From assembly GCA_038503065.1 (NCBI GenBank), contig JBCAMK010000015.1:62001-126000 (forward strand): DNA of 64,000 nt, in the 5' to 3' direction. Source of the DNA: Paragyromitra xinjiangensis. Lineage: Eukaryota; Ascomycota; Pezizomycetes; Pezizales; Discinaceae. Both the position numbers and the translations under genes were made by a program. Shown one piece after another: positions 18,958 to 64,000 of the stretch; positions within the stretch are counted from its first letter, which is position 1, and each line of letters begins with the position of its first letter. The notes under the pieces are model-generated. The model saw only the letters and a program-made list of their open reading frames with translations, was not told the origin of the DNA and did not search any database.

Positions 18958-20769
18958 CATCAGCAAAAATTGATAAAGCCGCCCCGGCCGCCTGGAGGTC
19001 TAGGCGGTCGGGCGGAATGTTACCCTTCTGTTAGGTTGCTGCAGCATCTCGGCGCGCCCTAGAGGCATGGTTTCTAGACCTTTGACCGCCTGGAGGAGGT
19101 CGTTTCCTCCTGTAGCAAGTGGTGTAGTGGGCTGCTTCTGGACGCGTGTGGTCCCTCGCTGCCGCAGGATTTTGGCAGCAGTTCGCCCTGTAGAATGGAT
19201 TTGTACAGTAGGGCCTGGAATATTCGGGAATCACTTGTATGGTGGAACCAATATCATTTACAATTGCTTTATTCTATGTATCTATGTATCTATATATCTA
19301 TGTACAAATATAAACTGGCTTCTGTGGAAGCTGCAGCAGCGAGTCGACAACCTGCCAGAGGCAGGCAGCGAATTGACCATTTGGCGGAGGCGGCGGAAGC
19401 TCAGGCAGCGAATTGACCTATTGGCGCAGGCGCAGGCTCAGGCGCAGGCGCAGGCTCAGGCTCAGGCGCAGGCGCAGGCTAAGGCTCAGGCAGCGGATCG
19501 ACCATATGGCGCAGGCTCAGGCTCAGGCTCAGGCAGCGAATTGACCTATTGGCGCAGGCAGCAAATTGACCATATGGCGCAGGCAGCGGAGGCTGCTGCA
19601 GCGAATCGATCAATTGGCTGAGGCAGCGGAAGCTCAGGCAGCGAATCGACCTATTGGCGCAGGCAGCGGAGGCTGCTGCAGCGAATCGATCAATTGGCTG
19701 AGGCAGCGGAAGCTCAGGCAGCGAATCGACCTATTGGCGCAGGCGCAGGCTCAGGCAGCGAATTGACCATATGGCGGAAGCGGAGGAAGCGGCGGAAGCT
19801 GCAGCAGCGAATAGACCATGTGGCGGAGGCAGCGGAAGCTCAGGCAGCGAATTGACCATATGGCGGAGGCGGAGGAAGCTCAGGAAGCGGATCGACGACC
19901 TCCAGGAGGCGGCGGAAGCTCAGGCAGTGAATTGACCTATTGGCGCAGGCAGCGAATCGACCATGTGGCGCAGGCAGCGGAGGCTGCTGCAGCGAATCGA
20001 TCAATTGACTAAGGCAGCGGAAGCCCAGGCAGCGAATCGACGACCTCCAGGAGGCGGCGGAAGCTCAGGAAGCTCAGGCAGCGGATCGACCATATGGCGG
20101 AGGCTGCAGAGGCGGAGGCAGCGAATCGATCAGTCAATTGAGCTGCCTCCTGAGCTCGCTTAGGCGGAAGCAGCGAAGCAGGCAGCCGGCGGAGGCAGAG
20201 GAAGCTGAAGCAGCGGATCAAAGCGAGCCTAGGAGGCATATCAGCGGGAGTCAAATAAACGGAATCAAGACGTTACCTGGGAGGTTCTTTGCAAGCAGAG
20301 CTTCGCGCTTCGAGCCTAAAAGTCACGATGTCAGCGGTACAGCGAGGTTGAGAATGGGTGGGAGGGAATAGGGGGAAGCAATAGAAGGAAGGACGGGAAG
20401 GAATAGGGGGAGGTGGAGATTGCTGTCTTACTAGGCGTTGCTTTGGCGACGACTAAGCGACGACTTGGCGACTACAAAGTGATGACTAAGCGACCTCCAG
20501 ATTTTTGAAAATCGCTAAGTGCCTGGGAGGCGAGTGTATTGAATTTTGCTAAGTCCCGAGTTTTCAGGGACTTAGAAAAATTCGATCGAAAATTTGCTAA
20601 GTACCCAAGCTGCCGCCCTGCGCTGCCGGATGGTAGGAGGTCGCCCAGAAGCGCTGCAGGCAGCAAGTGCCGCCCGGGGAAATCGCAGCAGGCAGCAAGT
20701 GGCGCCCGGGCGTGGCAGGCGGTCGGGCGGAATATGTACCTATTGGGCGCAATTTTTTTTTTGCTGATG
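18958..20769. mobile_element. Repeat-filled TIR element, copy A
   Basis: 1812-bp insertion. The left end reads CATCAGCAAAAATT and the right end is the inverse, AATTTTTTTTTTGCTGATG. A TT dinucleotide flanks both sides (18956-18957 and 20770-20771). Removing the element plus one TT joins AAA ACT to TTG GAG ACA in one frame, exactly rejoining the host gene Y. A 17-bp direct repeat (AGGCGGTCGGGCGGAAT) lies near both ends (19002-19018 and 20717-20733). The centre is a long tandem array. No transposase is visible, so it is non-autonomous or of unknown mechanism. Copy B is at 55080-56655. Confidence 0.82.
19330..20165 (+). repeat. Tandem array inside element A
   Basis: Imperfect units of about 12 bp built from GCGAATYGACC, ATTGGCGCAGGC and GGAGGCAGCGGAAGCT blocks. 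Unit length is a multiple of three, so several frames stay open (for example 19067-19621 and 19963-20163) and would encode Gln/Ala-rich low-complexity chains. These are treated as repeat by-products, not genes. Confidence 0.8.
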
Positions 20770-49320: not shown

Positions 49321-50973
49321 ATGGATATTGCTGGCTTATCTCTCGCGGTATTGGACCAGCTACTAAAGCTGATGGATTTCATCGGAACCAAAGTCGAAGA
49401 GTCACGAGACTTTGGCAAGGATGGACAAAAGCTTCGAATTCGAATGGACGACGAGCAGAACCGCCTTCAATCTTTCCAAAAGTTACTCTTTGACAAACAA
49501 TTTGGACGGCGAGGCGAGACCATATTCGGAAGCTTTCGCGAAGAAATCCAGCACAATATCCTCGAAATGCTGCGTCAGCTAAGGAAAGAACTTTGGCAAT
49601 ACATCCCGCTTCAGATACGATACAAGGTCACCGGATCGCTGCCTATGGATTTGTTGCATCCATCTAAGACTTCGGTTTCCACTCTATCTCAGGAATTCGC
49701 ACACGTTGGGATCGAAGAAAGAACGCAGAGTAGCATAAATATTCTACAAAAGATCGCTTGGGTTGGATGGGATAAGAAGAAGGCTGAGAGCATACTGCAG
49801 GATGTTGTGGACTGGAATAATAGGATCAAGGCAAACCTGGAGTTATCTTTACTTGAGCTTCAGGTTCAATTTTCAACGAGTCAGCCGGTCAGCACAGAAG
49901 ATATCTACGAACGTTTTGACGAGGATCAAGACGCCTGGAAGCTCGGACTTACAAATTCCGCTCAGCTGCATAAGCTCTCATTCTCGGAGAATTTTGCTGA
50001 GCAACATGCTCCGCCGGCATTAGATTTGAGGAAGACACCAATAGAACCCCTTCGCCTTATTGGACATCTCACAACGGGTTTATTTCGTCTCCCTAGCGGG
50101 GATAAAGTACCTGTAGTACTCGAACACAAATACTACGAAAAGTCCAAGTCAAAAGTCCAAAGACCTCCGGCAATAGAGCAGCGAATACGCCAACTAGCTG
50201 CACTACTAACACTTGATAAGCCAAAAACGTTCCATATTCTCAAGTGCCGCGGCTATTACCACGAACCAGATGCTACCCCCGATCCTCGCTACGGTTTTGT
50301 TTTCGACCTACCTTCCCCATCACCGCCGGAATCTGTTCCTGTATCCTTACTACAGTCATTCCGCCGCAAGCCTACCATGAACCTGACAGAAAAATTCAAG
50401 GTGGCCCATAGCCTTTCAATCGCCCTGAGTCAATTACATGTCGTTGGCTGGATCCACAAAAGCCTTCGTAGCGAATTAATCATGTTTTTCTCACGGAAGA
50501 CCACAGACCAAGACGAAAGCTTCTACGACGAACCCACGATCACAGGCTTCGAATACACCCGTCCAAGCGAATCAATGACGGATGCAGTTTCAGATGACGA
50601 TATCAATCGCAATATTTATCGGCACCCAGATCGCCAAGGAACTCCACGACGCACCTTTTCAAAGATTCATGATATCTATAGTCTAGGTGTCGTATTGCTG
50701 GAGCTTGGTGTTGGTCAGTCGGCGATGACGCTTGAGCAAGCTGGCGCTAACATTACCGCCGACTGGGAGCCTGGGAAAATCCAGAAACGGCTGCTCAGAC
50801 ATGCTGAGAAACGGCTTCCTGTCAAGATGGGGAAGACTTTTGAGTTAGTGGTTAAGAAGTGCCTTTTGGGGGATTTCGGGGTTAAGTATGATGACAAAGA
50901 GGAGACTGTGTTGATGAGAAAATTTCGCGAAGAGGTGGTCGAGCCGTTGGAGAAGATAGCGGTTGTTATGTGA
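49321..50973 (+). CDS. HeLo-like domain fused to a pseudokinase
   Basis: Single-exon, 550 residues. The N-terminus (MDIAGLSLAVLDQLLKLMDF, then ESRDFGKDGQKLRIRMDDEQ and RLQSFQKLL) follows the pattern of HeLo/HET-s-type helical domains, known in fungal incompatibility and regulated cell death as membrane-acting effectors or their adaptors. The C-terminal half is kinase-shaped but degenerate: HKSLRSELIMF stands where the HRD loop should be (no catalytic Asp), ITGFEYTRP replaces DFG, and HDIYSLGVVLLELGVG is the conserved F-helix. So it is probably a non-catalytic sensor or scaffold. The frame is fully intact. Divergent with the kinase-ankyrin locus. Confidence 0.78.
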   Translation: MDIAGLSLAVLDQLLKLMDFIGTKVEESRDFGKDGQKLRIRMDDEQNRLQSFQKLLFDKQFGRRGETIFGSFREEIQHNILEMLRQLRKELWQYIPLQIRYKVTGSLPMDLLHPSKTSVSTLSQEFAHVGIEERTQSSINILQKIAWVGWDKKKAESILQDVVDWNNRIKANLELSLLELQVQFSTSQPVSTEDIYERFDEDQDAWKLGLTNSAQLHKLSFSENFAEQHAPPALDLRKTPIEPLRLIGHLTTGLFRLPSGDKVPVVLEHKYYEKSKSKVQRPPAIEQRIRQLAALLTLDKPKTFHILKCRGYYHEPDATPDPRYGFVFDLPSPSPPESVPVSLLQSFRRKPTMNLTEKFKVAHSLSIALSQLHVVGWIHKSLRSELIMFFSRKTTDQDESFYDEPTITGFEYTRPSESMTDAVSDDDINRNIYRHPDRQGTPRRTFSKIHDIYSLGVVLLELGVGQSAMTLEQAGANITADWEPGKIQKRLLRHAEKRLPVKMGKTFELVVKKCLLGDFGVKYDDKEETVLMRKFREEVVEPLEKIAVVM

Positions 50974-52345: not shown

Positions 52346-55079
52346 TCCAAAAAAAAACAAATCCACCACACACCCAACAGCAAAACACTACTACTAACAC
52401 CTAAGCCGCACGCCAAATCCCTCAACATAAGACATAACCGAACATCCCAATACAACAATTTCTTTTAACTTCAATTTAATGCTCCAATTCTCCAAAACCC
52501 CATCCCAATTCCTCATTTTCTCTCTCAACTTCCCCCCTTGCTTCTCTCACTCCTCGCTTAAATTCTTTCCATATTTCTATCCCCCATTTTGCTCCCTCGC
52601 TCGTATACAATAGCAATGCTATCGACAACTGTTCTCCTAACTTTTCTCCTGCTTCGTCTCTCGCATCCTGGCTAAACATGCATTCTGTTAGGACGTGCTT
52701 AACGTCCTGTTTGCCTCTTCCACATTCGCATTCATCATTGTCTCGTTTGCCGATTCTTTTGGCATATTCATGGATCCAAATATGTTCAGTCCTAAGCCTG
52801 CTTAGGATGACTGGGCCCTCTCGTTCGTATGCTGCAAACTTTACCACTTTTCGTCGTGTGGGTTCTAGCCCGTATCTCGATCCCTTGCTCGGATGATTTT
52901 TCCAGAATTGCGTCCAATGGGTGATACTATCGCTCCTTGCTTTGGCTTCGAGATAGGTGAGGGATATGAAGCTGTCTTTGTCTCGGGGTTGCTTTGTGCC
53001 TTTCTTTCGCTGTGATGTCCGCTTTCTCGTTGCCGTTTATTCGACGTGGGCCTTTACCCATTCGGTTTCTGGTTGTACGCCATTGGTCCTCGCTGCGTCC
53101 AGTTCCCATCTGACTTTATGTGCCATCATTTCCCCAGGCCCTCTTTCTCTCTTCCCAATTCTTTTCATCGCTTCCTGGCTATCTATCCTTATCACCATTT
53201 TCCTTACTCCCTTTCGTCTGCATTCTTTTATCCCTTGCTCCACTGCTTTCTTAATGCCAACCATTTCTGCGTCCATGATCTCCATCTCGTTGCCCATGCC
53301 ATAACTCGCTTCCCACTCTAACCCGCCGTCTCTCCCTAGCCTGCACACTCCAACTCCCACCTTTCCGTCTATCTTTGACCCATCTGCATACATAACAACT
53401 TCATCTTTTCCCTCCCTTCTTCTTTTTTGTTCTATCAATCCTTCCTCATCGCCTTTGCCTATTTGTATGACTAATCCTTCTCTTATTCTTTTTTCCCACT
53501 TCCTTTCCTTCTCTTCTATTGCTTTATGTCTTTCCAATCTTTTCCACCCTTCTTTAATTTCTTCGCCTATCAGTTCAACTCCTCTTTTAACTCCACTTAG
53601 CTTTTTCCTATTTCTCCTTCTTCCCCCTTGCCAATTTTCTTCTTCTTGTTTAATTCTGATTTCTGCTTCCACCATTCTCCTCATCGGGTGATTTTCGCCT
53701 TTGCTTAATGTTCGTATCGTGATTCTCCGTTGTCTTTCTTGCATGCGTATCTCATTCGGTATGAGATCGTTTTCGACTTGAATCGCGCCTCCCGGGGCTG
53801 TTCGTAGGTGTCCTGCTAGCTTCCGCATAGCCTTTTGATCCGCCTTATCCATCTTCTCCGCAAGTCCTTTCTGCTCTTTCCACCACACCCGTGATCTATA
53901 ATCCATCACACTCCGTACACATGCTATATACATCTTTCTCAAATTTCCCACCCCACACCCTTTTTCCCCTTTAGCTAACCTCATGAGCCCTCCGCTGACT
54001 CTCTCTGCTTTTTTTATCTTAATATTTACATGCTCTTTAAATTCCAATTTTCTATCAATCCACACCCCCAGCCATCTCATGACTATGCTTTCCTCTTTAC
54101 TTGTTTCGTTTGGCATCCAAAGCCTTTCTTTTTCCTCACTATCAACTTTGCCAATGCGAATCCATTCCAGCTTATCTCCTGCAAACTTCACGTCATTCTC
54201 TCTCGCCCATTTCTCTGCCTCTTCTATCAAATCTTCTGCTCTCTCCATGGCTTCCTCCCAAGTATCGGCTGTTACTGCTAATGTAACGTCGTCAATGAAT
54301 GTTGGTGTGATGGCGTTTTCCGGATAATTTTCGTCGGTATGCTGCTCAAGGTGTTTCAGGAGGGGTGCAATATATGCGTTGAACAGCAGTGGTGATATTG
54401 GACTGCCTTGCGGAATTCCTGTGCTGACATTTTCCCACTTCCCTTCTCTTCCATCGAACCTCAACTTGACCTGCCTATCCTTCATAAAGCTCTCAATCCA
54501 CCTTACTGACGCCTCATTCACCTTTGCGTCTCTCATTCTATTACCTAACCTTATTCTTGTGACATTTGGAAACGCTTGATCGACATCCATTGCTACTAGC
54601 ACCACCTTTTTTCCGTTTTCTTGCTTCTTCTTGATCCACTCCATAGTGAATTCTACACACTCTTCAGCGCCTCTCTCCCTTCTTCCTCCCCACTGCATAT
54701 CATGGAAACACATATTTTCTTCCATGTGCTTGGTGATTCTCGTTTCGACTATTTTTTCCAGTATCTTGCCCATCGTGTTCAATAAGGATATAGGTCGATA
54801 GCTTCGTGGTGTTGTGTAATCCCCTTTATTTGGCTTTGGGATGATTGCTCCAATTGCTTGACGCCATCGCTTGGGGTGCTCTCCTTTTCTTAACATCACG
54901 TCCATGCCAGCTTGCATCCAACCATGGAACTTCAGGCCTGCTTCTTTAATCGCTTTGCTGAGTACCTGATCCGGTCCTGGCGCCTTCAGGTTTCCTTGGC
55001 TGTCAATTGCTGCTCTCATTTCTGAATCCGATATCTTGACGTATCCTGGGCTCCCTATCTCAGGTAATTTCCTTATCTG

Positions 55080-56655
55080 CATCAGCAAAAATAATTATTT
55101 CCTCCCTCAGCTCCAGGAGGCTCGGGATCATCGGGAGACTCGGGAGACTCCAGGAGTTTATGTACCTACCTGGAGGAGCGATCCACGACCGAGCTGCTCA
55201 GGGAGGCACGGAGAAGCAGGCAGCAAGCGCTCCGGGAGACTCTAGGAGATCGATATAGGCACTCCTAACGTGCCATGGAGAGCTGCGGAGGAGCACAAGT
55301 TACGCCTGTCACGGTACTCAATTCACTTATGTCACGCTGTCACTCAGGTCTAGAAAATTATTTTGACTATTATTATTGACTATCTAATGGATCTATATAC
55401 ATTGAACGAGTCCCCGCATCCTCCTGCCCTGCCGCATCCTACCCACCTATTCTGAGCCTGCTGCTGAGCTTGCCGTGGAGTCGATTCGGAGGCTAGCAAA
55501 CAGTCAATTCAGCCGTGGATTCGGAGGCAGGGAGGCGGTCGATTCGGCAGTTGATTTGGAAGCAGGCAGGCAGTCGATTCGGAGGCAGGAAAGCGCGGGA
55601 TTCGGAGGCAGGCAAACAGTCAATTCGGAGTCTATTCAGGAGTCTATTCAGCAGCCAATTCGGAGCCTATTCAGGAGTCTATTCAGCAGTCTATTCAGCA
55701 GTCAATTCAGCAGTGGATTCGGAGGCTCAGAAACGGCCAATTCGGAGTCAATTCGGAGTCTATTCAGGAGTCAATTCGGCAGTGGATTCGGAGGCTTAGA
55801 AACAGCCGATTCGGAGTCAATTCAGGAGTCTATTCGGAGGCAAGTAAGCAGTTGATTCGGAGGCAGGAAAGCGCGGGATTCGGAGGCTCAGAAACAGCCG
55901 ATTCAGAGTCTATTCAGGAGTCAATTCAGCAGTCAATTCGGCAGTGGATTCGGAGTCTATTCAGGAGTCAATTCGGCAGTCAATTCAGTAGGATTCGGAG
56001 TCAATTCAGGAGTCGATTCGGAGTCTATTCAGGAGTCAATTCAGCAGTCAATTCAGCAGTCAATTCAGCAGGATTCGGAGTCTATTCTGCAGTTGATTCG
56101 GAGGCAGGAAAGCACGGGATTCGGAGTCTATTCAGCAGTCAATTCAGGAGTCGATTCGGAGGTAGGAAAGCACGGGATTTGGAGGCAGGCAAGCAGTCGA
56201 TTCAGCCTGGATTCAGCAAGGGGAGTGACGGGGCCTATTCAGAGTTAGCTACTGTACAAAACGACGCGTCTATGGTGGAGATGTAGGAGAGGAAGAGGTA
56301 TGGGCAATGCTCAGGGGGTTAAAAGGGGGGTGAATAGGGTGGGCGGCGTGGGCGGGTTGGGGCAGCAACGGGGAGTTGAAAGAAATTCTTCAGTCGCTGT
56401 CGAGATCCAATAGTCTGCGATTCAGGGAGTCTCTGGCAGTGGTGTTGAGGTCCAGGAGTGGGGTGGAGGCTTAGCATCGTGCCTTTGGCTCATGGAGGAT
56501 ACAGCATATCTCGGGAGAAGCCATATCCTCCAGGAGATGCAGGTCGGGGCGCTCGTGCCTCCAAGCGCCCTGGGAGCGCACGGAGCGCCTGGAGGAGATT
56601 GCCTCCCCGGGAGACGTGCCCATGCTCCTGGAGGCGTTAATTATTTTTGCTGATG
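55080..56655. mobile_element. Repeat-filled TIR element, copy B
   Basis: 1576-bp insertion in the LINE RT gene. Ends are perfect 18-bp inverted repeats, CATCAGCAAAAATAATTA at 55080-55097 and its complement at 56638-56655, followed inward by an imperfect CCTCC match. TG flanks both sides (55078-55079 and 56656-56657). Removing the element and one TG leaves GAC CAG ATA on the minus strand, which joins the two LINE frames without a stop. Inside are GC-rich flanks with CTCCAGGAG motifs and a central tandem array. No transposase seen. It shares its outer 12 bp with copy A. Confidence 0.85.
55470..56225 (+). repeat. Tandem array inside element B
   Basis: Units of 12 bp and multiples (AGTCAATTCGGC, AGTCTATTCAGG, GGAGGCAGGAAAGC). 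They keep long frames open that would encode SIQESIQQSIRQ-like low-complexity chains. These are treated as repeat by-products rather than genes. Confidence 0.82.
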
Positions 56656-56960
56656 TGGTCCCTCGCTGGTGCTTCTAGGAATAGTTGCTTTCTGAATAAC
56701 TTTTCCTTGTCTTCGAAGCTTCTTGCTGTGGTCTCTGTCGTATGGATTGTGGGTGTTTTGGTATATATCCGCTGATTTAACGTCCTCCACACTGTCCATG
56801 CTTCTTTCTGGGTTTTAGCTTCTTGAATGAACATGTCCCACATTTCGACCTTTTTCTTTCTGATCAATCTAAACAGCTCATTTCTCTGCTTTTTCCATTC
56901 GCTAACATCCTCTTCTGTCCCTCCTCTGCTTCCCTTTTTCCATCTTCTGCACTGGCTGAC

Positions 56961-57972
56961 TGTTATACCTATGGCTATAGGCGTGCAGTGGTCTCCCTGT
57001 TACCCTACCTTCCATTTGGTCACCTTCCCGTCTTCGTTGGACCCCTCAGTGGCTGCCTATTGACTTCCCAGCCTATTCTCAGGCAGTTACCCTGCCTTCC
57101 CCGGTTACCCGGCCGTTACCCTGCCTTCGGTTGCGCTGCTGGCAGCGCTGGATCGAGAAGGGGGGACACCCGCAAAATATCCGCGTCCCGGAGACTAAAA
57201 GTAACCCTTTGGTCGTCAACGGCGCCCTTCCCGCGGAACGTGACCCGGAGGGTATGTATGAGAGGTCTTCATAGGGCAACTTGGGGCGCCGAGTCACGTG
57301 GGCTATTCGGATTAGTCATCAGAGGTCTCCTGCCCGCGCTACGGGGCTCCAAACACCAGCTGTCGCAACAAAACGATATCGTGTAACCACCTACTCGATC
57401 GGGCGAACGCAACCGTCGCAACCGTATCATCACCACGGCGATCCGAAGATTACTGAACGAGGGGTAAGCGTCGGAAGTTGGAGATATCGGCTTCGCCGAT
57501 AGGATGTCGGATAAATGGATAAGCGAGTTAGTTCAATTTGTAATAGTAGATAGTTTAGTCCGTCGACCCAAGCTACAAAGAACACACAGTAGTAAAGAGG
57601 ACGGGATATAAATACTCTTGCATTGGACGTCAATTCTGAGTCGATCATCATCGAGGAAGAACGAGTCTTATCAATATTATTTTGTTACCAACATACTTTG
57701 TTCCGTGATAAATTCTCCATCGTATCGAGTTGTTTAGCATAGCTTCGCGCTTCAACACTCGTGTCCTTCCTATTGAGAAAGTTCTTTCAACGGAACAGCC
57801 CCGACCCTTATCTCGCTTAAACTATCGTTGCCTTTGTGCGGTTCATAGGAAGTTGTCAGGACGTGCGCTCGGGTATTGTGCTACGGATAGTAGCCGGTCG
57901 AGTTACAGAGTCTAGAGAGCTATCTAAAGCTTCGCTTAGAATTCAGTAGTGGTGCGAAGTACCGGTCTTACA
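56961..57972 (-). mobile_element. Solo LTR, copy 2
   Basis: 1012-bp minus-strand copy of the LTR at 13236-14277, again TGTAAGACC...GGTATAACA. Perfect 5-bp duplications (CTGAC on the plus strand) lie at 56956-56960 and 57973-57977. It interrupts LINE ORF2 between the endonuclease and the reverse transcriptase. Small length differences from copy 1 lie mainly in the part near the GGTATAACA end. Confidence 0.9.
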
Positions 57973-60416: not shown

Positions 60417-63400
60417 CCCCACATGTGCCTGACCTTATCCATGAAAGTAGCCCCCTCCTTCAAGCGTGAGCTCCTGTGAACCTAAGGTACCATATCATTA
60501 AGTTTATCGGGATACCGTTGGTGAAAAATCTCCACGGCCTGTGTTTCTTGATGATCCTTTGCTGACTCCCAGGTAGGTTGAGCATAGCCCGTCCATTTGA
60601 CCAAATATTCCAGGTTTCCATATTGTATCCTCGAATCTAGGATTTCGTCGATATAGTATTCCTCATGATCGTTGACTTGTACCGGAGGTGGTGGTGGAAT
60701 TATCTGTCCTGGCAAGGGGTCTGTCGCGGTTGGCTTTATTAAGGATACGTGAAAGACGGAGTGATATTTGACTGAGGAGGGGAGGTCAATCTCATAAGCG
60801 TAGGGTGACACGACTCTTTTAACCGGGTATGGGCCCATCCATTTCCAGTCCAGTTTCTTTGAAGCCCGGGAAGTGCGTAGGTTTTTGGTAGATACAAAAA
60901 CTTGATCTCCGACTCGATATGCTGGGGCTGGGGTTCGATGCCTGTTGGTGCTTATTTCATAAACATCTTGGGCCGTCCGGATCTGTGTTCGTAGGAAGTT
61001 TCGAAGTTCTTCCATGCGCTGGGCGAAGTCCTTGGCATCGCGGGCTTGGGAATCCCGGGATGTTGGCATTATCAAGGTGTTAAAGCGAGGGTGGTAACCG
61101 TAATTGGCAAAGAAAGGTGTCACCTTTGTACTTGCCGATTCTTGATTGTTTGCTGCAAACTCCGCGATTGGTAACCACTTAACCCAGTCTTCTTGCTGAT
61201 AAGACACGTAGCACCGGAGATACTGTTCCATTACTGCATTGAGTCTCTCGGTTTGTCCGTCCGTTTCTGGGTGGAAGGAGGTTGACATCCTGGCCTTGAT
61301 CTGTAGCCGTTGGCATAACTCTTTCCAAAACTTGGCGGTGAACTGTGTACCACGGTCGGAAGTGATATGAGAGGGTAAGCCATGGATTTTCCAGACATTC
61401 AGGAGGTACAAATCGGCCACTTGTCGAGCATTCATAGTAGTGTTGCAAGGAATTAGGTGCCTCATTTTCGACAATCGGTCAACAATAACCATTATTGCGT
61501 CAAAGCCTTCCGATTCCGGTAACCCTGTCACAAAATCCATTGATAATTCTTCCCAGGGTCTATTTGGAATAGGTAGGGGGCGTAGAACTCCTTGCGTGCC
61601 TTGCGTTGTTGGCTTTGCTCGTTGACAGACATGGCAGTTCCTAATATATCGGCCAATATACTCCCTCATCTTCGGCCAATAGAAGTCCCTAGATACCAAT
61701 TCAAAGGTTTTTTCTCGTCCTGGATGTCCTGCTGCTGGTGCATTGTGATATTGTTGCAGGATTTCGAGACGAAGTGAATCAAAGTCGGGAACGAAGAAGC
61801 CTTGACGGTACTTGAGGAGCCCATTGCTGTTGGTGCATTCTGCCAGGGAAATTTCTTTCGATTGTCTATCTCCCTTTTCCAATGCTGTAAGGATCTTTTC
61901 CGGGAATGGGTCAGCTTTATATCCTTCTCTAAATAATGAAAGTAAGGTGGCGTCCAATTCAGCGGGTTCGTTTGATAAAGAACCCGTCAACAAACTTAGC
62001 TTAGAATCCAAATTTTCTTTCTTTAATACCACTTGACTCTGGTGTGCGAGTCTTTCATCCCCTTCTTCAGGGAGATCTCCTGATCTCCTGGTCAATGCGT
62101 CCGGTTTTCCTCCTTGTTTTCCTGGGCGATAAGTAATGACAAAATTAAAACGTGAAAGATACTCGGCCCATCTGGCTTGTCGACGGTTCAATTGTTTAGT
62201 GGTCATAAAATACTCCAAGTTTTTATGGTCCGAAATAACCGAAATGGGGTGCGCCGCTCCTTCCAGTTCCGGTCTCCATTCTTCAAAAGTGCGAATGATG
62301 GCAAGCAATTCTTTATTGTAGATTTCGTAATTGCACTCTGCTGGAGAGTGTTTTTTGGAAAAGAAGGCCACTGGGTGTAATACTCCGTTGTCATCATACT
62401 GAGAGAGAACGCCGGCAGACACATAATCGGAGGCATCTGTTTCCACAAAGATTTTCTTATCGGGGTCAAAGTGCATCAGGATTGGGGCGGTGGTGAAGGC
62501 AAGTTTCAAGTCATCAAATGCCTGCTGTGCTTTTGGAGACCATTTAAAAGGTGTATCCTTTTTTGTTAGCGCTGTGAGGGGTGACGAAAGCCGTGAAAAC
62601 CCAAATATGAACCGTCGGTAAAAATTTGCAAATCCTAAGAAAGCTTGAACGTCTTTGACTGATTTTGGAGTTCCCCATTCGCGTACCGCTTTCAATTTCT
62701 CCTCATCCATACTGATACCGTCTGGTGAGAGAATTAATCCCAAGTACTTTGTTGATTGGGTATGGAATTCGCATTTCTCAGGTTTAAGGAGGATCCCTTG
62801 TTGTTTTAGGGCCTGGAGAACCTTACGAACATGTTCCTTGTGTTCTTCCAAATTGTCACTGTATATCAAGATGTCGTCAAGATAGGCAGTACAAAAGATG
62901 TCCAGGTATTCGGTCAGACAATCATTAACAAAACGTTGGAAGGTGCCAGGTGCGTTGGTGAGTCCAAAGGGCATGACCTTGTATTCGTAGAGGCCGTAAC
63001 GGGTGTGGAATGCTGTTTTCCATTCTTCTCCCTCTGCCATCCGTATTTGATTATACCCCATGCGGAGATCCAGCTTGGTGTACCATTTTGCCTTAGCCAA
63101 GCGGTCTAGGGTTTCTCGGATGAGGGGAGAAGTATATCGGTCTTTGATGGTGATGTTGTTTAATCCGCGGTAATCAACACACAAACGGAGAGATCCATCA
63201 GCCTTTTTTACGAAGAGGACCGGGGACCCAGCTGGTGATGAGCTGGCTTGGATGAACCCTTTTCCGAGGTTGTCTTCTATATATTCTTTTAATACTCGAA
63301 GTTCCTCGCGGGACATACCATATAATGGTCCAAAGGGGGGTTCTTTTCCATCGAGAAGTGGTATCTTGTGATCGTAGGGGCGGCGTGGGGGGAGTCCGTT

Positions 63401-64000
63401 GGCTTTGGTTTCATCAAACATGTCCAAGAACTTGTGATATTCCAGGGGGATTCGTTTTTTCCATTCCTCCTTGGTATTTCTCTTATCGAGGATCTTATTG
63501 ATTTCGTCTAAAGAAATGGCATATATTTGGGAAGTCCGTTTCCTAGCTAGCCGGCTAAAAGCTGCAGCTCCAATGAAATGAACCCTGAGTTTTTCTGGAA
63601 GTTGGATGCCATGAGTGATGACAGGGGGTGCCGTGGGGTTGCAATGGGTACGGCAGCGGCTGGATCCAAAGGTTATTTTGTTGGCCGCAAATTGCAAAGA
63701 AATATCATGATGTTTCATCCAAGGGATTCCCAGGACCAGCGGGTAGTGACCGAGTTGTGTCACAAAGAAGGGGGCTTTTTCTTGGTGATCCTGAATATCC
63801 AGCCTGCAATGTACAAGGTGGGTGATGGCCCCTGAGGAAATGGGTCTTCCATCGATGACTTCTAGTTGACGGGGGTTTTTGAGAGAAATAAGAGGAAAAT
63901 TATGGTGACGCGCAAATTCTTCGTCCATGAATGCAAATCCTGAGGCTCCAGTGTCCAATAGTGCGTGAGTTTGTATGGTTTTATTGTTACTCGAAAGACT
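60417..64000 (-). mobile_element. Ty3/gypsy chromodomain retrotransposon, internal part
   Basis: Internal region of an LTR retrotransposon of the chromovirus type. It extends beyond the right edge of the window, where gag and the 5' LTR must lie. Orientation is minus. Between the pol stop and the proposed LTR there are about 65 bases. Confidence 0.85.
60482..64000 (-). CDS. Ty3/gypsy pol polyprotein with chromodomain, partial
   Basis: At least 1172 codons open without interruption, entering from outside the window; there is no start codon in view. Domains in order are aspartic protease (LLDTGASGFAF, then LVLGIPWMKHHD), reverse transcriptase (LRLCVDYRGLN, FGLTNAPGTFQ, catalytic YLDDILIYS), RNase H (FVETDASDYVSAGVLSQ, ISDHKNLEYF), integrase (zinc-binding H..H with CHVCQRAK; LSMDFVTGLPES, TSDRGTQF, SFHPETDGQTERLNAVMEQY), and a C-terminal chromodomain (YYIDEILDSRI, LVKWTGYAQPTWES). 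Chromodomains direct integration to marked chromatin in this clade. All catalytic residues are present, so it may be recently active. Confidence 0.95.
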   Translation of the reverse strand, partial: SLSSNNKTIQTHALLDTGASGFAFMDEEFARHHNFPLISLKNPRQLEVIDGRPISSGAITHLVHCRLDIQDHQEKAPFFVTQLGHYPLVLGIPWMKHHDISLQFAANKITFGSSRCRTHCNPTAPPVITHGIQLPEKLRVHFIGAAAFSRLARKRTSQIYAISLDEINKILDKRNTKEEWKKRIPLEYHKFLDMFDETKANGLPPRRPYDHKIPLLDGKEPPFGPLYGMSREELRVLKEYIEDNLGKGFIQASSSPAGSPVLFVKKADGSLRLCVDYRGLNNITIKDRYTSPLIRETLDRLAKAKWYTKLDLRMGYNQIRMAEGEEWKTAFHTRYGLYEYKVMPFGLTNAPGTFQRFVNDCLTEYLDIFCTAYLDDILIYSDNLEEHKEHVRKVLQALKQQGILLKPEKCEFHTQSTKYLGLILSPDGISMDEEKLKAVREWGTPKSVKDVQAFLGFANFYRRFIFGFSRLSSPLTALTKKDTPFKWSPKAQQAFDDLKLAFTTAPILMHFDPDKKIFVETDASDYVSAGVLSQYDDNGVLHPVAFFSKKHSPAECNYEIYNKELLAIIRTFEEWRPELEGAAHPISVISDHKNLEYFMTTKQLNRRQARWAEYLSRFNFVITYRPGKQGGKPDALTRRSGDLPEEGDERLAHQSQVVLKKENLDSKLSLLTGSLSNEPAELDATLLSLFREGYKADPFPEKILTALEKGDRQSKEISLAECTNSNGLLKYRQGFFVPDFDSLRLEILQQYHNAPAAGHPGREKTFELVSRDFYWPKMREYIGRYIRNCHVCQRAKPTTQGTQGVLRPLPIPNRPWEELSMDFVTGLPESEGFDAIMVIVDRLSKMRHLIPCNTTMNARQVADLYLLNVWKIHGLPSHITSDRGTQFTAKFWKELCQRLQIKARMSTSFHPETDGQTERLNAVMEQYLRCYVSYQQEDWVKWLPIAEFAANNQESASTKVTPFFANYGYHPRFNTLIMPTSRDSQARDAKDFAQRMEELRNFLRTQIRTAQDVYEISTNRHRTPAPAYRVGDQVFVSTKNLRTSRASKKLDWKWMGPYPVKRVVSPYAYEIDLPSSVKYHSVFHVSLIKPTATDPLPGQIIPPPPPVQVNDHEEYYIDEILDSRIQYGNLEYLVKWTGYAQPTWESAKDHQETQAVEIFHQRYPDKLNDMVP

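Follow-up and report, generated by a model that had tools for sequence, protein, structure and literature searches.

Copy B, the 1576-bp element at positions 55080..56655 of the window (the whole 64-kb stretch of DNA that was analysed), is almost certainly a non-autonomous PlavakaB-type DNA transposon without a transposase of its own, probably mobilised in trans by the Plavaka transposase of long elements with the same ends. Its termini are 5'-CATCA..TGATG-3', it is flanked by a 2-bp duplication, its site is found empty in other copies of the interrupted host gene, and its ends are those of elements of more than 9 kb in which the transposase domain is present.

The transposase encoded by the long elements, presumably active, would recognise the CATCAGCAAAAATAATTA ends of copy B, and the adjoining subterminal stretches rich in GGAG/CTCC probably assist in this. 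It would bind both ends and cut the element out, in a cut-and-paste reaction operating in trans. Copy B would have been inserted at a two-base staggered cut, and repair of the stagger by the host would have given the 2-bp duplication.

Copy B as a discrete insertion in a reverse-transcriptase gene

The left terminal inverted repeat of copy B (CATCAGCAAAAATAATTA, 55080..55097, plus strand) has its exact reverse complement in the right repeat (56638..56655, minus strand), and the repeat is set at 18 bp because base 19 differs between the two ends. The dinucleotide TG is present on both sides as a target-site duplication (55078..55079 and 56656..56657); the perfect repeats and flanking TG described in the earlier note were thus borne out. 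No ORF of 150 amino acids or more both starts and ends inside copy B, and no match to the Plavaka domain profile PF18759 falls in copy B or elsewhere in the 64-kb window in the genome-wide profile list, for which 123 of 168 candidates were scored. The interior contains degenerate head-to-tail units of approximately 12 and 23 bp around ATTCGGAG/ATTCAG, extending over 55477..56217.

Copy B lies within the reverse-transcriptase gene of a host retrotransposon, labelled a LINE in the earlier note, the minus-strand parts of which are found downstream (53037..55079) and upstream (56658..57000, as far as translated) of the element. The ORF at 53037-55088 has a match to the Pfam domain RVT_1 with an E value of 3.8e-30. 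When copy B and one TG are removed, the host frames fuse as predicted, with no stop across the 314 codons translated.

When the 600 bases to the left of copy B were used as a query against the genome, seven places were obtained, namely copy B's own and six others. The empty-site query, made by fusing 300 bases from either side and keeping a single TG, spanned the junction in five of the six other copies of the host element, with identities to the joined flanks of 99.0 % (L052), 84.5, 84.3 and 83.7 % (L053-L055) and 79.4 % (L056). Near the junction the alignments of L052-L055 were ungapped and that of L056 had equal spacing, while the sixth copy (L057) matched over 372 of 600 bases and ended short of the junction. 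The alignment of uninterrupted host copies which had been proposed as a check therefore gave the expected empty site in every copy that reached it. The palindrome was also looked for as part of the host's own sequence, and neither CATCAGCAAAAA, the outer 12-mer, nor its complement was present in any of the five uninterrupted loci, L052-L056. The interval 55080-56655 is confirmed as a discrete insertion within the retrotransposon gene.

Within the window, CATCAGCAAAAA occurs without mismatch at four places, which are the four ends of copy B and of a second element, copy A (18958..20769, 1812 bp), with 12-bp inverted repeats and a TT duplication. Three further copies of the sequence flanking copy A were found in the genome, each of them an exact, uninterrupted empty site with a single TT. 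The two elements have their outer 12-13 bp in common and no blastn match with E <0.1 between their interiors, in line with the shared outer 12 bp and unrelated interiors first noticed. Because only the terminal bases are shared and no interior similarity is detectable, copies A and B are regarded as two families of one lineage; the earlier description of them as the same family holds for the lineage and not for the family.

A third filled/empty pair was met by chance inside a long Plavaka element, where a 2.3-kb insert (L072:5630-7961) has CATCAG..CTGATG ends and GA on both sides; the long element L031 is without this insert. The interior repeats of the insert match those of copy B at approximately 70-75 %. 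At L044:201-4864, A-type sequence is located within an element having B-type ends; this is a composite arrangement, since no 2-bp duplication flanks the A-type sequence inside.

End matches, duplications and long elements in the genome

With up to three mismatches allowed, the 18-mer CATCAGCAAAAATAATTA matched the genome 254 times on one strand and 271 times on the other, whereas the reversed pattern, used as a control, gave 18 and 19 matches. The search with full-length copy B gave at least 72 matches (40 of 190 candidates scored), and the best other copy among the matches listed was 95 % identical over the full length. The corresponding search with copy A gave at least 71 matches (40 of 216 candidates scored). 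A spaced palindrome pattern had no match in the whole genome, as expected with ends that are far apart.

Duplications were counted in 32 elements (L031-L050, L058-L067, A and B, with L068-L077 left out), chosen from the lists as facing-end pairs and not at random. An exact 2-bp duplication was present in 26 of these and a 3-bp duplication in none, whereas in 2000 rounds of shuffling of the right flanks the number of elements with a 2-bp duplication averaged 4.0 and never exceeded 11. The flanks of L040 are identical to those of L041, the two being probably one insertion that was copied, so that the 32 elements represent 31 distinct flank pairs. Twelve different dinucleotides were found among the 26 duplications, with TT (6), TG (4) and CA (4) in front, AA among the others and TA in one, in agreement with the proposal that the duplications are two bases long and variable in sequence. 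Among nine further A-type elements, picked from the listed genome matches of copy A, eight had a 2-bp duplication. The elements without an exact 2-bp duplication were L034, L038, L044, L050, L059 and L060 (6/32) and the one remaining A-type element.

Five fetched elements of 9346-9446 bp (L031-L035) have the same 18-bp ends, and all five have a PF18759 match. The Plavaka domain of L031 is spread over two reading frames of the same strand (E 1.3e-55 and 5.5e-17), and the upstream frame starts with a weak C2H2 zinc-finger match, under the curated cut-off. The motifs CPKC and HLLTH are visible by eye in the L031 translation, and the catalytic residues were likewise assigned by visual inspection alone. 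Genome-wide there were at least 125 matches to PF18759 (123 of 168 candidates scored), and each of the five long elements contained at least one; the number is not a gene count because domains were counted exon by exon. No PF18759 match was found in 14 control genomes, a control that says little because all of its named members are prokaryotes. The first named database matches to the transposase are from Morchella (44-48 %), and PF18759 proteins of morels are already visible in databases. A fragment of an RNA polymerase III subunit has its best named match in Tuber melanosporum (87 % identity over 94 %), and with the Morchella matches this makes a host in the Pezizomycetes probable.

The Plavaka domain of L031 contains an in-frame TAG (L031:2934-2990, minus strand), common to most of the top-scoring copies. 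This TAG is the final codon of an in-phase 51-base stretch of the form GT...CTAAT...TAG, and in other PF18759 copies the match is interrupted at this point of the profile by roughly 30-150 bases. In view of the in-phase stretch and the split copies, the TAG was not taken for a defect or a recoded stop, and the 51 bases are most simply explained as a putative in-phase intron. The genome also contains Plavaka copies whose exon layout is different.

The first 101 bp of copy B have 97-98 % identity with one end of L031, L034 and L035, and 88 % with that of L032 and L033. The last 84 bp have 83-86 % identity with the other end of L031-L035, so that the asymmetry of the two ends is the same in both. 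Apart from these terminal stretches of about 100 bp, copy B has no match longer than 60 bp to L031-L035, with the exception of 84 bp in the flank of L035. The possibility that copy B is an internal deletion of these elements was rejected, the interior being without a match to the long elements. Queries consisting of the two ends of copy A gave no long partner among the matches listed (best 40 of 83 and 40 of 80 candidates). The genome is useful for the study of Plavaka, since several elements have both filled and empty sites, related elements with the same ends are present in long and short forms, and matches to the transposase domain number in the tens.

Relation to known transposons and alternative explanations

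Section 3.2.2 of PMC12730594 (2025) gives the termini of PlavakaB as CATCA..TGATG and the duplications as 2 or 3 bp. Copies A and B fit both the termini and the duplication size, and these two features point to a placement in PlavakaB. Copy B resembles PlavakaB in its CATCA..TGATG ends, in its variable 2-bp duplications and in the PF18759 domain of its partner elements, but differs in having no transposase of its own. If A and B are PlavakaB elements, a variable 2-bp duplication is to be expected and is not a new transposition rule. The novelty of the ends and of the element type that the earlier note implied was accordingly not upheld, the termini and duplication being as in PlavakaB in the cited section and the long partners holding the Plavaka domain. 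The Plavaka families treated in that part of PMC12730594 were reconstructed from Agaricomycotina, whereas the genome studied here looks like that of an ascomycete. Inverted-repeat motifs of Plavaka elements in a mushroom genome were described earlier (PMC8290104). PMC12730594 was the only literature match for Plavaka together with Morchella or with Tuber.

PlavakaA elements belong to the same transposase group and share the 2-bp duplications, but their termini, TGT..ACA according to PMC12730594, are not those of copy B. The same source places Plavaka in one clade with EnSpm (EnSpm/CACTA), Mirage, Chapaev and Transib, and gives CAC..GTG ends and 3-bp duplications for fungal EnSpm families. The suggestion that CACTA-like elements are the nearest comparison thus pointed to the right neighbourhood because of the clade shared with EnSpm and Transib, and the termini do differ, as had been said. 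EnSpm/CACTA elements resemble copy B in their CA..TG ends, in a related transposase (PMC12730594) and in subterminal motif clusters, but the ends of copy B are neither CACTA nor CAC..GTG and 3-bp duplications were found in 0 of the 32 elements. EnSpm/CACTA proper was rejected on both counts. Clusters of subterminal motifs are a feature of plant CACTA elements.

The absence of CACTA termini, together with a duplication of 2 bp rather than 3, could also be read as the mark of a new superfamily with its own transposase, sharing merely the 2-bp duplications with CACTA-like elements; with the Plavaka domain present in long elements that have these ends, and termini matching those published for PlavakaB (PMC12730594, section cited), this is highly improbable. 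Short inverted repeats and small size are all that would speak for a miniature relative of Tc1/mariner or of another TA-targeting element. Just one of the 26 two-base duplications is TA and copy B has TG, so that this origin, considered unfit from the outset, has practically no probability left. Equally close to nil is the chance that there was no insertion and that the palindrome arose by chance or is the host retrotransposon's own sequence, a reading for which no support was found and against which stand the five uninterrupted copies and the 525 end matches in the genome compared to 37 in the control.

A closer competitor keeps the Plavaka assignment and attributes the movement of copy B to another Plavaka transposase than the one of L031-L035, with several subfamilies in the genome. 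The interior and much of the length of copy B differ from L031-L035, Plavaka copies of other exon layout exist, and copy A is without a long partner among the matches listed, all of which are consistent with such an origin. However, copy B and L031-L035 have end stretches in common, of approximately 100 bp and 84 bp, and a different transposase is considered unlikely. Mobilisation of copy B by the transposase of the long elements with the same ends is the preferred explanation.

Subterminal clusters, a second gene region and other ORFs

The left and right subterminal stretches of copy B (55080..55279 and 56456..56655) are dense in GGAG/CTCC, with 15 and 14 occurrences in 200 bp, respectively, compared to 1.8 per 200 bp elsewhere in the window, an enrichment that is post hoc because the motif was picked after it had been seen in copy B. 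The end 200 bp of the long elements contain 13-20 occurrences, against a mean of 4.4-4.7 inside, and of the 175-177 windows inside, 0-4 are at least as rich in the motif as the poorer end. The corresponding ends of copy A contain only 4 and 1, with no enrichment.

Plus-strand ORFs opposite the transposase are located at L031:4672-8557 and are conserved in the other long elements. Five ORFs on this strand have translated matches in L032-L035, at approximately 65-100 % identity, and the four that were scanned had no Pfam match above the curated cut-off. The word 'subterminal' is absent from the main text of PMC12730594, and neither the subterminal GGAG/CTCC clusters nor the conserved second gene region is described in the passages cited here.

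A tentative and rather doubtful proposal is that PlavakaB is a two-protein system like plant En/Spm, consisting of the zinc-finger-bearing transposase and the product of the second gene region of the long elements, on the other strand, with one of the two proteins binding the GGAG/CTCC clusters confined to the ends. Short elements such as copy B would have kept about 100 bp per end, including the clusters, the rest having been replaced by unrelated tandem repeats. If upheld elsewhere, the clusters and the second gene region would tell how the ends are recognised.

Two further ORFs were observed in the window. The one at 49321-50973 has HeLo and DUF7580 matches, such as occur in fungal proteins of incompatibility or cell death. 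The other, at 60482-63958, encodes an LTR-type polyprotein with reverse transcriptase, RNase H, integrase and chromodomain.
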